Virus record (IMG/VR): IMGVR_UViG_3300034031_000054
Span: 1-31,633 of that record
Reading direction: 5' to 3' (one strand)
Length of the DNA: 31,633 nucleotides
From: a virus
The translations under genes were made by a program, and so were the position numbers. This document shows, in pieces, positions 18,306-30,880 of the stretch. Within the stretch, counting starts at the first letter, position 1, and each line of letters begins with the position of its first letter. Below the pieces are notes generated by a model. It had not been told where the DNA came from, did no database searches, and saw nothing but the letters and a program-made list of their open reading frames with translations.

Positions 18306-20840
18306 ATGATTAATATTAGAGAAAGCGTAAAAAATTATAATGATTTTTTAGAGAGTAAGATACTGGAGATTCCAAACACAGGATTTGAATATGATAGTTT
18401 TCACGAAAATACATTTCCGCATCAAAAAGATACCTGTAGGTGGGCACTGCATGGTGGAAGGCGTGCCATCTTTTGTTCTTTCGGTTTGGGAAAAACAGTC
18501 ATCCAGTTAGAGCTTGCAAAAGCCGTAATCGAGAAAACAGGAAAACCATTTCTTATTGGCTTACCACTTGGGGTCATGGGTGAATTCCGTGATGATGCGA
18601 AAAATATTTTAGGATTGGAAGTGGATTACGTAAAAGATCAGGAGGATGCGGAACATGCACAAAGTTTTTATGATAAACCACAAATCATGTTATCCAATTA
18701 CGAAAGGATCCGTAACGGTAACTTCGATACTTCTTATTTCGGAGGAGTGTCGTTTGATGAAGGTGACGCTATCCGGAACCTCGATACTAAGACATCGGAT
18801 TACATCATAAGTGAAATGTCTAAGATCGAATACCGTTTTATTGCCACGGCAACGCCCGCTCCTAACGAATACACTGAAATCCTGAATTATGCAGAATTTT
18901 TAGGAGTGTGCGATCGCGGGCAAGTATTAACCAGGTTCTTTCAGCGGGATAGTACTACAGCCAACAACCTTACGCTCTATCCGCACAAAGAGAAAGAATT
19001 TTGGATGTGGGTACGCAACTGGGCCATCTTCATTGAATATCCATCTGACTTAGGTTATAGTGATGAAGGCTATAGGCTTCCTGAGCTAAAAGTACATTAT
19101 CATCAAATCAATTTAGAAAATCGTTCCATTAAAATCGACAGGGACGGCAATGTGAAAATGTTTACCGATCCTGCAAAAGGAGCACCGGAAGCATCAAAAG
19201 AAAAAAAAGAAAGCCTGGCATTGAGAATTGATAAGTCTATAGCCATAGCGATGGAGCATCCGGATAAGCATTTTATTTTCTGGCATGACCTGGAAGATGA
19301 GAGAAGGTTATTGGAAAAAAAACTACCCAAGGAAAAAGCTAGGTCGGTGTACGGTACCCAGAAGCAAGAAGTAAAAGAGGAATTGCTTAATGGATTCAAA
19401 AACGGGGAGTTTCAATACTTAGCCACTAAACCTTCAATTGCCGGGGCCGGATGTAATTTCCAAAAGCATTGCTCTGATGCTATCTTTTGCGGTATCGGAT
19501 ATAAGTTCAAAGACTTCATCCAGGCCATACACAGGATCCTTCGCTTCAGGCAATCCAATGAAGTCAATATCCATTTGGTATTCACGGATGCCGAACTGGA
19601 AATACTAAAAAAGCTGGAGCGTAAATGGTCCGACCATAAGAGGATGATTGCTGAAATGACAGCATTAATGAAAAAGTACGGACTGGACCAGAAAGCACAG
19701 ATAGCTGAACTTAAAAGGGCAATCAATATCAATCGTCAGGAATGGAAAGGAGAAAAAGCAACTTTGATAAATAATGACTGCATCGATGAAGTAAGAACAT
19801 TTGCTGACAACTCCATACAGATGATACTTACCTCCATTCCCTTTAGCGATCAGTACGAGTATTGCGAAAATTACAGGGACTTCGGGCACAACGATGGCAA
19901 CAAAGGTTTCTTTGAACAAATGGATTTCTTAGTTCCGGAACTATTACGAGTTTTAGAGCCTGGGCGTATAGCTGCCATTCACGTAAAAAACAGGATGCAG
20001 TTCAAATATCAGAACGGTGTAGGTTTCATAACGCTTATTGATTTCAGGGGGCTTACTACTGCCAACTTCCAAAAGCATGGGTTTCATTTACTCGGCGAGC
20101 ATTATATCGATACGGATGTGGTACGTGAGAATGTACAAACTAATCGTTTGGGATGGACCGAGAATTGTAAAGACAGCTCAAAGATGGGGTGCGGATCACC
20201 GGAGTATCTTTTAATCTTTAGAAAAGCACCTACGAGCAATGATAATGCTTATGCTGATGTGAAAGTAGCAAAATCCAAAACCGAATATTCCAGAGGCAAA
20301 TGGCAGCTGGATGCTCACTCCAGATGGAGAAGCAATGGGAACAGGTTACTGTCTCCGGAAGAGCTGCGGTCGATGGATTTAAAGAAGATTTCCAGATGGT
20401 GGAAGAACTACATTAAAAACAATCCGTACAACTTTGAAGATCACGTAAGCTTATGCGAGATGCTGGATTCCATGAAAAAGCTGCCTTCGGGTTTTATGGT
20501 GCTATCTCCATTTACCCATACTCAAAATGATTATGTATGGGACGATATCAGTAGGATGCATACGCTTAACACACAACAAACGAGCAAAAAAAAAGAGAAG
20601 CATGTTTGCCCGCTTCAGTTCGATATTGTCGACAGGGCCATCGAACGCTACACCAACGAAGGTGATTTAATTTATGATCCTTTCGCAGGAATTGGAACGG
20701 TGCCATTGCGGGCCATTAAAAAAAAGAGAAGAGGCATAGGAACCGAACTGCACGAGCTATACTGGAAAGATAGTGTAGAGTATGTAAAAGCCGAAGAATA
20801 TCACCAGTCCGTACCCACTTTATTTGATTTAGCAATATGA
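18306..20840 (+). CDS. SF2 helicase fused to beta-type DNA methyltransferase
   Basis: This 844-aa two-domain protein has an N-terminal SF2 helicase: Walker A 'SFGLGKT' (58-64), DEGD (151-154), 'TATPAPNE' (181-188) and 'QAIHRILRFRQ' (406-416). A C-terminal aminomethyltransferase follows: motif IV 'LTSIPF' (508-513) in place of the usual DPPY/SPPY, and motif I 'DPFAGIGTVP' (791-800) at the end. The IV-before-I order is that of the beta class (N4-C or N6-A). The helicase part could move along or open DNA to reach target sites, as in type III or some BREX-like enzymes. It heads the modification block and overlaps the next gene by 4 nt (ATGA). No restriction partner is seen, so it probably protects phage DNA. 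Confidence 0.85.
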   Translation: MINIRESVKNYNDFLESKILEIPNTGFEYDSFHENTFPHQKDTCRWALHGGRRAIFCSFGLGKTVIQLELAKAVIEKTGKPFLIGLPLGVMGEFRDDAKNILGLEVDYVKDQEDAEHAQSFYDKPQIMLSNYERIRNGNFDTSYFGGVSFDEGDAIRNLDTKTSDYIISEMSKIEYRFIATATPAPNEYTEILNYAEFLGVCDRGQVLTRFFQRDSTTANNLTLYPHKEKEFWMWVRNWAIFIEYPSDLGYSDEGYRLPELKVHYHQINLENRSIKIDRDGNVKMFTDPAKGAPEASKEKKESLALRIDKSIAIAMEHPDKHFIFWHDLEDERRLLEKKLPKEKARSVYGTQKQEVKEELLNGFKNGEFQYLATKPSIAGAGCNFQKHCSDAIFCGIGYKFKDFIQAIHRILRFRQSNEVNIHLVFTDAELEILKKLERKWSDHKRMIAEMTALMKKYGLDQKAQIAELKRAININRQEWKGEKATLINNDCIDEVRTFADNSIQMILTSIPFSDQYEYCENYRDFGHNDGNKGFFEQMDFLVPELLRVLEPGRIAAIHVKNRMQFKYQNGVGFITLIDFRGLTTANFQKHGFHLLGEHYIDTDVVRENVQTNRLGWTENCKDSSKMGCGSPEYLLIFRKAPTSNDNAYADVKVAKSKTEYSRGKWQLDAHSRWRSNGNRLLSPEELRSMDLKKISRWWKNYIKNNPYNFEDHVSLCEMLDSMKKLPSGFMVLSPFTHTQNDYVWDDISRMHTLNTQQTSKKKEKHVCPLQFDIVDRAIERYTNEGDLIYDPFAGIGTVPLRAIKKKRRGIGTELHELYWKDSVEYVKAEEYHQSVPTLFDLAI

Positions 20841-22048
20841 AAAATCAGCTTAACATTTTTGGAACTGAAAAGATAGCTGTTGCTGATTCTATCGAACTTA
20901 CAATCCAAAGTTTAAAAGAATATGGAAGCAAGCACAAGCATTGGGCTGCAGCATGGAGTTGGGGAAAGGACAGCACGACAGTAGTAACTCTGGTAACCCA
21001 GCTGATAAATACGGGCCAGATTCCCGCTCCGGAATCATTTACAATTTTCGCGGCCGATACCAGGATGGAATTAATACCTCTTTGGCTTTCCGCACAAGTT
21101 ATAAAAAAACAGATGGAGGAGAGAGGAGTTAGGGTTGAAATAGTAACCGCCCCAATAGATGACAGGTTTTTGGTTTATATCTTGGGGAGAGGAGTTCCGC
21201 CGCCTTCCAATACTTTCAGGTGGTGTACTGGACAGATAAAAGTAGAGCCGATGGAAGAAGCCCTTTCAAAGTTTATTACAGATAAAGATGAAAAAGTCTT
21301 GATGCTTACAGGCGTGAGACTGGGAGAAAGTGCAATCCGAGACCAACGTATAAATGTAAGCTGTTCTAAAGATGGGGCTGAATGTGGACAAGGCTGGTAC
21401 CAGAACGGCTTGAAAAACGATCTATGCGCAACCCTAGCCCCAATACTGCATTGGAGGGTCTGCAACGTGTGGGACTGGCTGAAAGTATTAGCGCCAATGG
21501 AGAAGCATGGTAGCTGGAATACCGCTTTACTTGCTGATGCTTATGGAGGAGATGAAGCTGAAGAAATTAATGCGCGTACAGGATGTATAGGTTGTCCTTT
21601 GGTAGAAAAAGACAAATCTCTTGACACAATATTAAAAAATCCTAAATGGCAATACCTAGTGCCATTAAAAAGATTGAAAATGATTTATAGAGAGATGAGA
21701 TTTCCAAAATATAGACTTCGTAAAAATGGTAATGAGTTTAGAAAAGATGGATCCTTAGCAAAGAATCAATATAGAATGGGGCCATTAACACTTAAAGCTA
21801 GAGAGTATTTTTTAAATGAAATATTATTCATTCAAGAAGAGGTAAATACAAAAGCTATTGAAATAGGAATGCCGGTTATTGATATTCTAAATTCTGAAGA
21901 AAAAATTAGAATCGTTGAATTAATAGAGGCCAAAACGTATCCGAATAAATGGTCAGGAGATGAATTAAACGCATCAATTCCTCAAGATGAAATAATCTAT
22001 TCTGATGGAAGCATCATGGAAACACTTTTTAAAAACATAACAGAGTAA
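20837..22048 (+). CDS. DndC/PAPS reductase-like PP-loop enzyme
   Basis: This 403-aa protein contains a PP-loop 'SWGKDSTTV' (41-49) that binds ATP or adenylyl sulfate, 'RWCTGQIKVEP' (128-138) and 'GVRLGESAIRDQR' (159-171), all diagnostic of the PAPS reductase/DndC group. Further cysteines (C176, C183, C197, C209 and C250-IG-C253) could bind an Fe-S cluster, as in DndC. Relatives replace a backbone oxygen by sulfur (DNA phosphorothioation) or reduce activated sulfate. Here it sits between two DNA methyltransferases in a phage, with ATGA-type overlaps on both sides, which favours a DNA or nucleotide modification role. No DndA/B/D/E partner is seen. Confidence 0.8.
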   Translation: MKNQLNIFGTEKIAVADSIELTIQSLKEYGSKHKHWAAAWSWGKDSTTVVTLVTQLINTGQIPAPESFTIFAADTRMELIPLWLSAQVIKKQMEERGVRVEIVTAPIDDRFLVYILGRGVPPPSNTFRWCTGQIKVEPMEEALSKFITDKDEKVLMLTGVRLGESAIRDQRINVSCSKDGAECGQGWYQNGLKNDLCATLAPILHWRVCNVWDWLKVLAPMEKHGSWNTALLADAYGGDEAEEINARTGCIGCPLVEKDKSLDTILKNPKWQYLVPLKRLKMIYREMRFPKYRLRKNGNEFRKDGSLAKNQYRMGPLTLKAREYFLNEILFIQEEVNTKAIEIGMPVIDILNSEEKIRIVELIEAKTYPNKWSGDELNASIPQDEIIYSDGSIMETLFKNITE

Positions 22049-23844
22049 TGACAGATTCTCAATTAAAAACGGAAACCTCCGCTTTTATAGCTCACGTAAA
22101 AAAAACAGCGGATTTAACTAAACCGTTAGTCTTTTGGATTGATTTGTTCTGTGGGGCCGGGGGAACTTCTACCGGCATCCACTTTACTAATATTGCAAAT
22201 ATGTTTGTTGCGGCATGTGTCAATCATGATGCCAATGCAATACTAAGCCATGCACTTAATCATCCGGATACGCTTCATTTTACAGAAGATATTAGGGACT
22301 TTGAAGTTGTAGAAAAGCTAAAGTATCTGATTGATGAATTGCGCAAAAACTTTCCAAAATGTATAATAAATATTTGGGCGTCACTTGAATGCACGAACTT
22401 TTCAAAAGCAAAAGGAGGGCAGGCTAAGGATGCTGATAGCCGTACATTAGCTGAGCACATGTTCATGTATCTGGAAAGTTTGAACCCAGATTATTTTTGG
22501 ATTGAAAATGTGCGGGAATTCATGAGCTGGGGGCCGCTAGATGATAATGGTAAACCAATTTCGAGAACTGAAGGTAAGGACTATATTAAGTGGATCGAGA
22601 ATGTGAAGTCTTACGGATATCGCTATGATGCTAAGATATTAAATTCAGCCAACTACGGTGCCTACCAAAGTCGCGAACGTTTGTTCATTCAATTTGCAAA
22701 AAAAGATTACCCTATTCAATGGCCGGAGCAAACCCATACAAAGGATAAAGTTGTAAGTCCTTTATTTCCTATGGCAAAATGGAAACCAGTTCGCGAAGTA
22801 TTAGACTTAACGGATGAGGGCGTGAGCATCTTTGAAAGAAAAAAGGAACTATCTGATAATACATTAAAACGCATTTATGCTGGACTTATAAAATTCGTTG
22901 CAAATGGTAATGATGTTTTTACCAAAAGGTATAACGGAGGTAAATTAAATCCGGAACAAAAAGTAAATTCAATAGATAAGCCCATGGGAACTATTTGCAC
23001 CAACGGAACCCATGCCCTGGTAAAATCAGTTTTTATTAAAAAATATTATTCAGGTCGGCCAGAAGGTAAAGTAATAAGTATAGATGGTCCTGCAGGGACA
23101 GTTAAATGTATTGATGGCCAGGCAATGGTTACGGCTTCACATTTTATTCAGCAAAGGTATACTGGAGAACCAAAAGCTAAAATTATTGATGTGAATGGCC
23201 CTGCTAGAACTATTACCGCTACAGGAGGCAATCAGGAGATAGTTACAGCTTCACACTTGAATACCTATTACGGTAATGGCGGGATTCATTCAATCGATAA
23301 ACCTGCACCTACTATTACAACAAAAGATAGGATTAGTAAAATAGATGTAAACTTTATTGACCAGCAATACGGGACCGGGGTTGCAACTTCAATTGAGAAA
23401 CCAATAGGAACACTTACGACTATTCCAAAATTTAGTTTAGTCAAAGCAAAGCAATACGTTTTTAATCCATCATGGGGAGGTAACAACGGAAGTATTGATA
23501 ATCCCTGCTGCACTGTTGTAGCCAGACAAGATAAATCTCCTCTTTATTTGGTGTCTACTGAACTGGGACAAATAACTATTCCAGTGTATGAAAGTGATTC
23601 GGAAACGATGATATTAATAAAGGAGTTTATGGTTACGCATGGTATAATCGACATTAAAATGCGAATGTTAAACATCCCGGAACTAAAGCAAATCCAGGGA
23701 TTTCCAAAAGATTATAAATTGATAGGGAATTCAACACAACAAAAAAAGTTCATTGGAAATGCTGTAGAAGTTAACCAGGCAAAAGCTTTGGTGAGATGTA
23801 GCTATTTTTCTTTAGTGGAATACTTTAAAAAACAAGCAGCTTAA
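22048..23844 (+). CDS. C5-cytosine DNA methyltransferase with six-repeat insert
   Basis: This 598-aa enzyme has motif I 'IDLFCGAGGTSTG' (31-43), the catalytic Cys in 'ASLECTNFS' (C115), ENV in 'WIENVREF' (151-158), motif VIII 'QSRER' (207-211) and motif X 'GNAVEVNQAKAL' near the C-terminus. Motif IV has Leu-Glu-Cys in place of the usual Pro-Pro-Cys. From about 290 to 503, where the target recognition domain is expected, there are six tandem units of 33-37 residues. Each has 'SID.P..T(I/V)' after a 'F(I)..YY.G' start. It transfers a methyl group (or handles another C5 modification) to cytosine in phage DNA. Family clear, sequence specificity unknown. Confidence 0.9.
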   Translation: MTDSQLKTETSAFIAHVKKTADLTKPLVFWIDLFCGAGGTSTGIHFTNIANMFVAACVNHDANAILSHALNHPDTLHFTEDIRDFEVVEKLKYLIDELRKNFPKCIINIWASLECTNFSKAKGGQAKDADSRTLAEHMFMYLESLNPDYFWIENVREFMSWGPLDDNGKPISRTEGKDYIKWIENVKSYGYRYDAKILNSANYGAYQSRERLFIQFAKKDYPIQWPEQTHTKDKVVSPLFPMAKWKPVREVLDLTDEGVSIFERKKELSDNTLKRIYAGLIKFVANGNDVFTKRYNGGKLNPEQKVNSIDKPMGTICTNGTHALVKSVFIKKYYSGRPEGKVISIDGPAGTVKCIDGQAMVTASHFIQQRYTGEPKAKIIDVNGPARTITATGGNQEIVTASHLNTYYGNGGIHSIDKPAPTITTKDRISKIDVNFIDQQYGTGVATSIEKPIGTLTTIPKFSLVKAKQYVFNPSWGGNNGSIDNPCCTVVARQDKSPLYLVSTELGQITIPVYESDSETMILIKEFMVTHGIIDIKMRMLNIPELKQIQGFPKDYKLIGNSTQQKKFIGNAVEVNQAKALVRCSYFSLVEYFKKQAA

Positions 23845-23864: not shown

Positions 23865-24065
23865 ATGGCAAATGATGATTATCCGGTAGGACAAAAAAAA
23901 TGCGCTTGGTGCGGGGAAGAAATCGATGTTTATAGCAATGCACAAAAATACTGTAGTCGTTCAGATAGTCCGGAATGCCAAGACGACAGATACTTCAGTA
24001 AGTCATGGGATAAAGGAAGGCATCCTATACAAATGGAACAAAAGGAACTAATAAAATCATTATGA
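23865..24065 (+). CDS. Small zinc-ribbon protein (66 aa)
   Basis: 'CAWCGEEIDVYSNAQKYCSR' and a later Cys in 'SDSPECQDD' form a four-cysteine zinc ribbon, similar to small proteins of the DUF2116 kind (MYND-like knuckle). The C-terminus is basic and short. It overlaps the second PP-loop gene by 4 nt (ATGA). It may be an adaptor for the modification enzymes; that is inferred from position only. Confidence 0.7.
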   Translation: MANDDYPVGQKKCAWCGEEIDVYSNAQKYCSRSDSPECQDDRYFSKSWDKGRHPIQMEQKELIKSL

Positions 24066-24922
24066 AAAAATTGATAACGATTAATAGTCTTTCAGGTGGT
24101 AAAACCAGTTCTTATTTAGCAGTAAATCATCCAGCAAGCGTTGAAATGTTTGCCATAGTTTGTATAGAAGACCACAATGCTGCTGGTTGGCTTAAAAAAG
24201 ATAAGAAAGCCTTGCAGTATGCTAATGATAAACTCGAAAAGTATATTCCGATCTATGGAGAATTTCGAGCAACTGCAGAGGATCCTTACATCATTTACAC
24301 AATGATGCAATTAGAGCAAAAAATAGGACGTGAAATAGTTTGGGTTCGTGGAAAATCATTTGAAGATGTCATTAAACAACATAAAGCATTACCAAATCAA
24401 GTTTGGCGATTTTGCACTACTGATCTTAAATTGATTCCAATCTTTGAATATACCTATATGAATTATGGTGAAGATGTCCTCATGAGATTAGGAATAAGAT
24501 ACGACGAAAAAGAAAGGGCCGAAACCATTTCAAATGAATTCAAATTCCCATTTTCCTGTAACAACTATGGAAAGAAAAAGCAAAATTGGAAAACAGTTGA
24601 ATGGCGTAATGTTGAATATCCAATGATTGAAAACGAAGATACTCATTATCGTGTTACACAGTTTTGGAATAATAATACGGATGTTAGGTTTTCTGAAGAT
24701 AGTAATTGTCAAATGTGTTTTTGGAAACATATACAGCAGTTAAGGAAAAACTTTGAAAGCAACCCGCCAATAATGTATTGGGCTGGTATACAAGAGTTGG
24801 TTAAAGGCAACACTTTCAAAAAAGAAATAAGCCTATTAGAAACAAAAGAAATAGGTATCCAACAAGATTTCAATTTTGGCGGAGGTGCTGAAAATTGTAA
24901 GTCAGGCTGGTGCCGAGGTTAG
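24062..24922 (+). CDS. Second PP-loop enzyme (PAPS reductase-like)
   Basis: This 286-aa protein has the PP-loop 'SLSGGKTSSYLA' (9-20), 'RFCTTDLK' (116-123), 'LGIRYDEKERA' (143-153, equivalent to GVRxxES.R), 'CQMC' (216-219) and C279/C284 near the end. It is a compact N-type PP-loop ATP pyrophosphatase of the PAPS reductase/DndC class, smaller than the one at 20837 and with only moderate similarity to it. Enzymes of this type activate a substrate with ATP (adenylation) and may use Cys-bound sulfur or an Fe-S cluster. Its co-localisation with the other PP-loop enzyme suggests that the two act in one pathway. Confidence 0.75.
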   Translation: MKKLITINSLSGGKTSSYLAVNHPASVEMFAIVCIEDHNAAGWLKKDKKALQYANDKLEKYIPIYGEFRATAEDPYIIYTMMQLEQKIGREIVWVRGKSFEDVIKQHKALPNQVWRFCTTDLKLIPIFEYTYMNYGEDVLMRLGIRYDEKERAETISNEFKFPFSCNNYGKKKQNWKTVEWRNVEYPMIENEDTHYRVTQFWNNNTDVRFSEDSNCQMCFWKHIQQLRKNFESNPPIMYWAGIQELVKGNTFKKEISLLETKEIGIQQDFNFGGGAENCKSGWCRG

Positions 24923-24970
24923 AGAGAAGGATAGATAATATTGTTTTTTAAAAAAATAAATCTGATAAAA

Positions 24971-25783
24971 ATGGCACAAGATTCTAAAATAGAGTGGACA
25001 AATCACACGGCCAATTTATGGTCCGGATGCACAAAAGTGCATGAAGGTTGTGATAATTGTTATGCAGAGACATTATCCCACAGATGGGGCAATGATGTTT
25101 GGGGCAATGATAAACCCAGGAAGTTGGTAAAGAAAGTATGGGCAGATTTAGCTAGGTTTCAAAAAACGGCATCCGTGGCAGGAGAAGTTCACCGGGTATT
25201 TGTCGGCTCCATGATGGATATATTCGAGAAATCGATGCCATTGATTGATGGAAAAGGAAATGAAATTGTTGTAGAACAAGAAGATGATTTTGCCCGAAGA
25301 CTTTTAACTGGAGATTTACGCCAGCAATTATTCAATAATATTACAGTAGGCTTATATCCTAATCTTATGTTCTTGTTGCTTACAAAACGGCCTAGTAATA
25401 TTAACAAACATATCCCGGAAAGTTGGAAAGTAAATCCCCCGGAAAATGTGATGTTTGGTATTTCATTAAGTTGTGAAAAGAATGTAAAAGATTTATTCCC
25501 ACACTTCGTAAAAGTAAGAGGACGTAAATTTTTGAGTGTTGAACCTCAAATTGAATCCATTGACCTTGCTGAACCAAATGAAAAATATGGGTATCCTATT
25601 CATCATATAGATCGGGTTATCCAGGGAGGTGAAAGCGGACATCATAGAAGGCCTTTTAATATTAAATGGGCTTATGAAATGAAAGAAGTTTGCGAAATAG
25701 CAAAAGTACCTTTCTTTTTCAAACAGATAGATAAAATTAAACAAATACCTGAAGATCTCTTAATTCGTCAATTTCCCAAATAG
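24971..25783 (+). CDS. Phage Gp37/Gp68 family protein (DUF5131)
   Basis: I choose the ATG at 24971 (MAQDSKIEWTNHTANLWSGC), the usual N-terminus of this family, over an upstream frame start at 24941. The 270-aa protein has 'SGCTKVHEGCDNCYAE', a CX6CX2C cluster resembling a radical-SAM-like iron-sulfur motif. It also has 'LLLTKRP', 'FLSVEPQIE' and 'VIQGGESGHHRRPFN', the recurring family segments (TIM-barrel-like). The activity of DUF5131 is not established to my knowledge. Because the family is common in phages next to nucleotide-modification genes, a redox or radical step in base modification is a reasonable guess. The family call is confident. Confidence 0.8.
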   Translation: MAQDSKIEWTNHTANLWSGCTKVHEGCDNCYAETLSHRWGNDVWGNDKPRKLVKKVWADLARFQKTASVAGEVHRVFVGSMMDIFEKSMPLIDGKGNEIVVEQEDDFARRLLTGDLRQQLFNNITVGLYPNLMFLLLTKRPSNINKHIPESWKVNPPENVMFGISLSCEKNVKDLFPHFVKVRGRKFLSVEPQIESIDLAEPNEKYGYPIHHIDRVIQGGESGHHRRPFNIKWAYEMKEVCEIAKVPFFFKQIDKIKQIPEDLLIRQFPK

Positions 25784-29389: not shown

Positions 29390-30880
29390 ATGAATCAGCC
29401 GACCATCAATTCAAGAGTCATTAAAACAGAGCTAATCAATTGGCGTGAGCTTCAATTTATTCAACAAGACAACTTTAAAGAATGGGTAAATAGCGGGGAA
29501 CAAAAACTGATTGAATCTATTTTAAAATATCAATTCATTGCTCCATTTATGGTTTGGCAAAACGAAGGTGTGAATTATTGTCTTGATGGCCGGCACCGCT
29601 ATATGGATTTAGAGAAAGTTTCAGGATTGGGTGCAAACGTTCCAGAACTATTGCCGGCAACTTTTGTTGATTGTGCTAATATGAAAGAAGCGGCCGAATT
29701 GGTTTTAGTGTATTCAAGTGCTTACGCCAGAATCACCCAACAGGGGCTATTTGATTTTGTAAATAACTTTGATTTAGACTTTCCAGATCTACAGGCGATG
29801 ATGAACATTCCAGAGTTTGACGATGTCGCATTTCAGGGATTATTAAATAAAATGGAAGGAAACGAAGAAGAAAAAATCATTTCACTAGCATTGAAAGATA
29901 GCTTTATATTTTCTCCCTTTTCAATTTTAGATACACGTTCTGGCGTATGGCAGGAACGTAAACGTAAATGGTTAGCACTTGGTTTCAATTCTCAGGAAAC
30001 AAGAGAGGATGTAGAAATAATTGCTAAAAGTGGACAATCGACAGCTATTTATGAATTGAGAAATAAAATGCGTGAAAGTTTGGGCCGAGATCCGGAATGG
30101 GACGAAATCCTGGAATACGCAAAGAAAAAAGGAATGCACATTTATGAAGGTGCAAGTATATTTGATCCTGTACTTTGTGAATTGTCATACCGGTGGTTCT
30201 GCCCGGATGGAGGTAAGATATTAGACCCGTTTGCCGGAGGTTCTGTTCGTGGCATAGTTGCCGGCGTTCTTGACTTTAATTATGTTGGGGTTGATCTAAG
30301 GCCGGATCAATGTGTTGCAAATAGAAACCAAGCATCAATTTTAAATTTAGATGTAGTTAAAACACAATGGTTGGCAGGAGATAGTAACGAGGTTTTAGAA
30401 AAAAAACTAAGTGAAGATGGATTTGATTTTGTTTATTCTTGCCCTCCGTATGCTTATCTGGAAAAATACAGCGATGACCCTAAGGATTTATCTAACATGG
30501 ATTATGAGGACTTTAAGGATGTATACTTTAGTATCATCAAAAAGTCTGTTGAACAATTAAAGGATGATCGCTTTGCCTGTTTTGTAGTTGGTGATGTTAG
30601 AGATAAAAAAGGGTTTTACTTAAACTTCGTGAGTGATACGATACAAGCATTTAAAGATGCGGGGATGGAACTATATAACGAAATTATATTAGTAAACGTA
30701 GTAGGCAGCTTGGCCATTCGGGTGCGTCGTCAGTTTAATGGAGGCAGGAAAATTGGTAAAATGCATCAAAATGTATTAGTGTTCTATAAAGGAGATCCTA
30801 AAAAAATCAAAGAAAACTATCCGGAATTGCATTTAGAAGAGGATATAGAATCGTTCAACAATGAATTAATGGAGATTTAA
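29390..30880 (+). CDS. ParB-like domain fused to DNA methyltransferase
   Basis: This 496-aa protein begins with a ParB/sulfiredoxin-like domain ('CLDGRHRYMDL', residues 64-74, is the conserved ParB box). It continues with a linker and a C-terminal amino-methyltransferase: motif I 'DPFAGGSVRG' (279-288) and motif IV 'SCPPY' (350-354). The I-before-IV order differs from the fused enzyme at 18306. ParB-methyltransferase fusions are common beside terminase genes and probably mark or protect DNA during packaging. It is the first gene after the late promoter. The final target and base are not visible. Confidence 0.85.
   Translation: MNQPTINSRVIKTELINWRELQFIQQDNFKEWVNSGEQKLIESILKYQFIAPFMVWQNEGVNYCLDGRHRYMDLEKVSGLGANVPELLPATFVDCANMKEAAELVLVYSSAYARITQQGLFDFVNNFDLDFPDLQAMMNIPEFDDVAFQGLLNKMEGNEEEKIISLALKDSFIFSPFSILDTRSGVWQERKRKWLALGFNSQETREDVEIIAKSGQSTAIYELRNKMRESLGRDPEWDEILEYAKKKGMHIYEGASIFDPVLCELSYRWFCPDGGKILDPFAGGSVRGIVAGVLDFNYVGVDLRPDQCVANRNQASILNLDVVKTQWLAGDSNEVLEKKLSEDGFDFVYSCPPYAYLEKYSDDPKDLSNMDYEDFKDVYFSIIKKSVEQLKDDRFACFVVGDVRDKKGFYLNFVSDTIQAFKDAGMELYNEIILVNVVGSLAIRVRRQFNGGRKIGKMHQNVLVFYKGDPKKIKENYPELHLEEDIESFNNELMEI

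Follow-up and report, generated by a model that had tools for sequence, protein, structure and literature searches.

A temperate phage encodes a predicted C5-cytosine methyltransferase with a modular array of six recognition units

The methyltransferase gene and its surroundings

The window, i.e. the whole stretch of DNA that was analyzed, is a virus record of 31.6 kb that contains genes for an integrase, a repressor, a RecT-like protein, and an exonuclease and therefore belongs to a temperate phage. The nearest relatives (79% identity) are located in Flavobacterium genomes, and the host of the phage is probably a Flavobacterium-like bacterium. One gene of this record (22048..23844, plus strand) encodes a protein of 598 amino acids that is predicted to be a C5-cytosine DNA methyltransferase. 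The conserved motifs I (residues 32-39), IV (112-119, SLECTNFS), and VI (153-155, ENV) are followed in order by the motifs of the C-terminal side, namely VIII (207-213), IX (539-545), and X (570-575). The protein matches the Pfam family PF00145 (E 5.5e-32; 111.9 bits vs. a cut-off of 22), phrog_116 of the PHROGs collection (E 4.8e-69), and the type II methyltransferase models of PADLOC; its score of 91.3 with the NCBIfam dcm superfamily model is under the cut-off of 100.65. The catalytic part together with a conserved connector (22048..22917, plus strand; residues 1-290) includes the PF00145 stretch (31-265) and is modelled by AlphaFold2 with pLDDT values mostly above 85. A Foldseek search with this model confirmed the catalytic fold only, which resembles those of DNMT1, M.HaeIII, and M.HhaI (E 7e-12 and 3e-11 for the latter two, respectively). 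The C-terminal section (23560..23841, plus strand; residues 505-598) consists of a linker, motifs IX and X, and a C-terminal helix.

In canonical C5-methyltransferases, the catalytic cysteine is preceded by a proline. Motif IV of the phage protein retains the catalytic cysteine but has no Pro-Cys dipeptide, as the cysteine is preceded by a glutamate (Glu114-Cys115, with Glu114 encoded at 22390-22392). This residue is Asp or Glu in 223 of the 225 proteins compared, with the sequence LEC or IEC in 139, PDC in 82, and PEC in two of them. Since the relatives with reported activity are homologues of PDC enzymes, the acidic residue marks a subfamily and is compatible with activity. Shared by the whole family of the protein, it constitutes a second testable peculiarity. 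The best match by sequence among PDB entries is CmoX (8yf3; E 5.6e-12), a phage C5-carboxymethyltransferase that is homologous to C5-methyltransferases but has only 372 amino acids and no array. An SPPC motif together with an arginine has served to define CmoX candidates (PMC12783734). As residues 112-115 of the phage protein read SLEC and not SPPC, carboxymethylation of the CmoX type was rejected.

No restriction endonuclease was found next to the methyltransferase among the neighbouring proteins scanned, which fits an orphan methyltransferase with an anti-restriction function. Directly upstream lies a DndC-like gene of the PAPS-reductase family (20837-22048, plus strand) that overlaps the start codon of the methyltransferase gene by one base, and in Escherichia phage Eeyore a gene of the PAPS-reductase family likewise directly precedes the methyltransferase gene (locus L172). 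In a search for conserved gene partners, the DndC-like gene was detected nearby in only two of 138 near relatives. Further upstream, an SNF2-type helicase is fused to an N6/N4 DNA methyltransferase (18306-20840, plus strand). Such a fusion lies near the C5-methyltransferase gene in 34 of the same 138 relatives and at most 300 bases upstream of it in 19 loci when near and distant loci are both counted. On the 3' side, a second PAPS-reductase-like gene (24062-24922, plus strand; phrog_424 with a weak SspD match) and a DUF5131 gene (24941-25783, plus strand) are located. A fusion of a ParB-like protein with an N6/N4 methyltransferase is encoded at 29390-30880 (plus strand), so that the record of 31.6 kb carries three DNA methyltransferases. 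A 9-bp tandem repeat, TTTTTACTT, is present in about nine copies at 1862-1945.

Six units with a TL core between motifs VIII and IX

The region between motifs VIII and IX contains an array of six tandem units of 31-37 residues each (residues 291-504; window 22918-23559). All units were located with a profile that started from these six and was then iterated over 140 proteins, and all lie on the plus strand. Unit 1 (22918..23025, residues 291-326; type 21) has an HMM i-E of 3.6e-12 and is followed by unit 2 (23032..23136, residues 329-363; type 25; 1.8e-14). Unit 3 (23143..23250, residues 366-401; type 17), which is missing in several close relatives, has a weaker value of 5.7e-7. Units 4 (23257..23349, residues 404-434; type 35) and 5 (23353..23448, residues 436-467; type 48) reach 6.6e-13 and 1.5e-13, respectively, and the array ends with unit 6 (23449..23559, residues 468-504; 1.3e-6), the constant C-terminal unit. 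In a leave-one-out test with 2000 shuffles per unit, the real score was reached by none of the shuffles for units 1, 2, 4, and 5, by two for unit 3, and by three for unit 6. The protein contains exactly six cores of the form P..T(I/L/V), one in each unit (at residues 312, 348, 385, 419, 452, and 486), with spacings of 36, 37, 34, 33, and 34 residues. In 2000 composition shuffles of the whole protein this core was met 0.41 times on average and four times at most. Thus, the profile search, the shuffles, and the core count bear out the six tandem repeats of a preliminary description of this DNA, whose unit starts at residues 291, 329, 366, 403, 436, and 469 are right within one residue.

The six units share 16-44% identity at the protein level and 45-61% at the DNA level, and Tandem Repeats Finder reported no DNA-level repeat across the array. 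The units are therefore old duplications and not slippage repeats. For the same reasons, a slippage-driven phase variation of the array was rejected.

The unit core corresponds to the TL motif in the target recognition domains (TRDs) of C5-methyltransferases. This motif forms the center of the TRD, has been used in domain swaps of multispecific enzymes, and has been published as (YFW)X(RK)X5P(STCA)PT(ILV)(TASV)X5-16H(PFYWL), located 10-50 residues before motif IX (PMC2413257). Among the six units, the strict form P(STCA)PT(ILV)(TASV) is met only by unit 4 (PAPTIT), and it is found in 28% of the inner units of the family. A looser form, P..(T/S/C/A/V)(I/L/V), covers 95% of 672 inner units. As a TL core is present in every unit, reader modules is a fair name for them. 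The window unit model also matches the M.SPbeta protein weakly. M.SPbeta has two TL motifs, and the unit profile aligned with the one in its last TRD with a score of 19.9 over 14 columns at 15.7% probability, while the best of 200 column-shuffled profiles scored 16.9. No PDB chain was found with the unit profile up to an E of 10, and searches of single units against Pfam yielded only scattered chance matches and no family. Homology of the units to TRDs is thus regarded as likely and not as proven, because the match is short and PDB sequences gave no match.

AlphaFold2 modelling of the phage protein with 66 relatives yielded a confident catalytic part, whereas units 1-5 had pLDDT values mostly below 50. 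Unit 6 is the only part of the array that was modelled with confidence, as three strands with pLDDT values of 55-81. The array was no better resolved in a second model that was based on 28 relatives, most of them of one five-unit arrangement, with the protein of locus L051 as first sequence. Likely causes of the poor array models are misalignment of the arrays by MAFFT and shallow alignments of closely related rows. We infer that each unit would fold as a TRD. The published code that relates the residues flanking the TL motif to targets covers four-base enzymes with another spacing.

Gain, loss, and replacement of whole units among relatives

The variation of the array was analyzed in 139 Bacteroidota-type relatives. 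Their arrays consist of three to nine inner units and one constant last unit, i.e. of four to ten units in all, and the 672 inner units fall into 56 types. Units of the same type share 62% identity between proteins, compared to 31% between different types and 30% between the units within one protein. The order of the types is nearly fixed: of 1365 ordered type pairs, no more than 14 show the minority order. A sequential order of TRDs is reportedly mentioned in the title of an article from 1988 that deals with the Bacillus phage enzymes.

In contrast to their order, the number and identity of the units change readily. Among 1040 pairs of relatives with at least 75% identity in the catalytic part, unit number differs in 611, and in 755 one or more units have no counterpart that reaches 50% identity. 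The differences between close relatives concern whole units and lie at unit borders. In one relative with a catalytic part 87% identical to that of the window protein (L089), unit 5 is replaced. Others lack unit 3 and have an extra unit before the last one (L001), lack units 2 and 3 (L093), or combine another unit 1 with the same unit 5 (L091). The preliminary description had suggested a modular array in the recognition region, which is supported by the gain, loss, and replacement of whole units in the 139 relatives. It had further proposed that copy number could change specificity. Unit number indeed varies between relatives by evolutionary gain and loss of diverged units, but not by slippage, and a change in unit copy number is likely to alter specificity.

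The constant last unit, NPQ.......GS(I/V)..PCFTLIARMDKMPPYL and variants, closes the array in all 139 relatives. Its conservation resembles that of the catalytic part, with mean identities of 63% and 66%, respectively.

Relation to known enzymes and possible function

In the Bacillus phage enzymes M.SPbeta, M.SPRI, M.phi3TI, M.rho11sI, and M.H2I, one catalytic domain is likewise combined with tandem TL-centered TRDs between motifs VIII and IX, and these enzymes are also phage-borne and have no partner endonuclease. The TRDs of the Bacillus phage multispecific enzymes have about 35-40 residues. M.SPbeta nevertheless belongs to another sequence family, as blastp against the window protein gave an E of 2e-6 over 107 residues that cover positions 115-220 only. 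In addition, M.SPbeta has a PC in motif IV, whereas the window protein has an acidic residue before the catalytic cysteine, and its two TL motifs contrast with the four to ten units of the Bacteroidota-type family. The constant last unit is a further feature by which the latter family differs from the Bacillus phage enzymes. Membership in the M.SPbeta/M.SPRI sequence group was rejected since there is no close full-length kinship; the working mode appears to be alike. In SPbeta-like methyltransferases of three viral contigs (L262, L265, and L267), the content of the recognition region differs and the last TRD is common. M.HhaI and M.HaeIII share the catalytic fold and a TL motif in the recognition domain (PMC2413257), but they have a PC in motif IV and one recognition unit instead of six.

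Judged by sequence, the family of the window protein is separate from the SPbeta group. It is very widespread and occurs across many phyla, in their phages, prophages, and plasmids. Phage records with a family match include phages of Gordonia, Mycobacterium, Pseudomonas, Arthrobacter, Vibrio, and Escherichia, and 412 records of a plasmid collection have such a match. Arrays of about three to eight units were found in members from Pseudomonas, Escherichia, Myxococcus, Aeromonas, Paracoccus, Marinobacter, Acetoanaerobium, Mycobacterium, and a haloarchaeal virus. The phrog_116-type enzymes of Escherichia phage Eeyore, Pseudomonas phage pAN, Myxococcus phage Mx4, the Aeromonas ARM81 phages, Paracoccus phage Pyei1, and Sinorhizobium phi2LM21 belong to the same family over their whole length and share TL-centered arrays of about three to eight units and the acidic residue before the catalytic cysteine. 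They differ from the window protein by an identity of only 25-30%, by PDC (or PEC) instead of the LEC of the Bacteroidota branch in motif IV, and by other unit types.

Several members of the family have been tested. Two Paracoccus aminophilus prophage enzymes were described as relaxed, with partial protection of many sites, several of them short (PMC3925955). Pyei1_p05, a homologue of these enzymes with about 69% identity (PMC6536676), carries some eight units, and its alignment to the window protein has an E of 8e-50. The Aeromonas ARM81 enzymes, which have five units, were also called relaxed, and the Sinorhizobium phi2LM21 enzyme was inactive in Escherichia coli (PMC5537653). The same paper condenses the relaxed specificity to a cytosine within a CC motif. 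The Pyei1 and ARM81 proteins align to the window protein with E values of 1e-46 to 1e-50. The tested relatives either share about 26-29% identity with the window protein or are homologues of proteins with this level of identity. No description of arrays in this family was found in the literature searched, outside of which most subscription journals lie.

Tandem TRDs in one polypeptide enable the Bacillus phage enzymes to methylate several targets and thus to protect DNA from several restriction enzymes (PMC8936443, PMC12707154, PMC5923457). By analogy, the window protein is proposed to be an orphan multispecific C5-cytosine methyltransferase of a phage, in which six TRD modules would be used singly and serve anti-restriction. 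We assign this reading a probability of roughly 0.62. According to this proposal, a single catalytic domain would be followed by six modules for target recognition, each about 35 residues long, which would be diverged copies of the TL-centered core found once, ahead of motif IX, in single-target C5-methyltransferases. At each DNA site, one module would dock in the groove beside the flipped cytosine, which would then be methylated by the catalytic domain. Different modules would admit different short targets, presumably one target per unit, and a single enzyme could thereby shield phage DNA from several restriction enzymes. Relatives gain, lose, or replace modules singly while the order remains nearly fixed and the constant last module stays next to motif IX.

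The main rival to the multispecific enzyme is one with relaxed specificity, in which the constant last unit would be the only true TRD and read little, the upstream units would add general DNA affinity or processivity, and many cytosines would be methylated in a loose context. Such an enzyme would explain why the last unit alone is present in all 139 relatives with a conservation like that of the catalytic part, why it adjoins motif IX, where M.HhaI has its single TRD, and why it alone is modelled confidently. It would also agree with the description of tested relatives as relaxed (PMC3925955) and with the CC-motif summary (PMC5537653), and their relaxed specificity could reflect weak discrimination by one reader. 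However, the protected sites include AGCT, in which no CC is present, the TL core is kept in every unit, and the identity of 62% within types of inner units, together with the sharp differences between types, exceeds what simple affinity units would need. A relaxed enzyme of this kind is therefore considered unlikely. It is even less probable that most modules are dead, i.e. that one or two units read DNA and the others are relics of duplication or spacers. The unit model does give lower scores to units 3 and 6, the latter of which belongs to another type, and the frequent gain and loss shows single units to be dispensable over evolution. Yet the types have been kept at about 62% identity with an intact TL core in many genomes of several bacterial classes, which argues for selection on each type.

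The preliminary description had also raised the idea of a long target, for which the six units would line up along the DNA and jointly read a single long sequence. Units spaced regularly at 33-37 residues and a nearly fixed order of unit types would suit such a reader, but it fits poorly because unit number changes freely, even between enzymes with nearly identical catalytic parts. The AlphaFold2 models, in which units 1-5 have low pLDDT values, contain no superhelix, and we know of no C5-methyltransferase that reads DNA by units lined up along one long target. In the closest characterized precedent, the Bacillus phage enzymes, tandem TRDs are used singly to reach several short targets, and several short sites are likewise protected by the tested relatives. 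The idea of a long target was therefore not supported and is regarded as very improbable.

The multispecific reading would place the window protein within an architecture that is already known, since C5-methyltransferases with tandem TRDs have so far been described from a few Bacillus phages. What is new are the family, the longer arrays, and the documented turnover of modules. As a tentative generalization, the family described as having relaxed specificity might consist of evolving arrays of four to ten modules. The Bacteroidota branch alone has at least 56 types of them, and each type would have a short target of its own. If the units act independently, the reported relaxed specificity would be explained, specificity would become predictable from unit types, and the family would represent a natural library of recognition modules. 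If each type has its own target, the modules would provide interchangeable parts for programmable 5mC methylation, and the restriction enzymes that a phage lineage has met would be readable from the content of its arrays.
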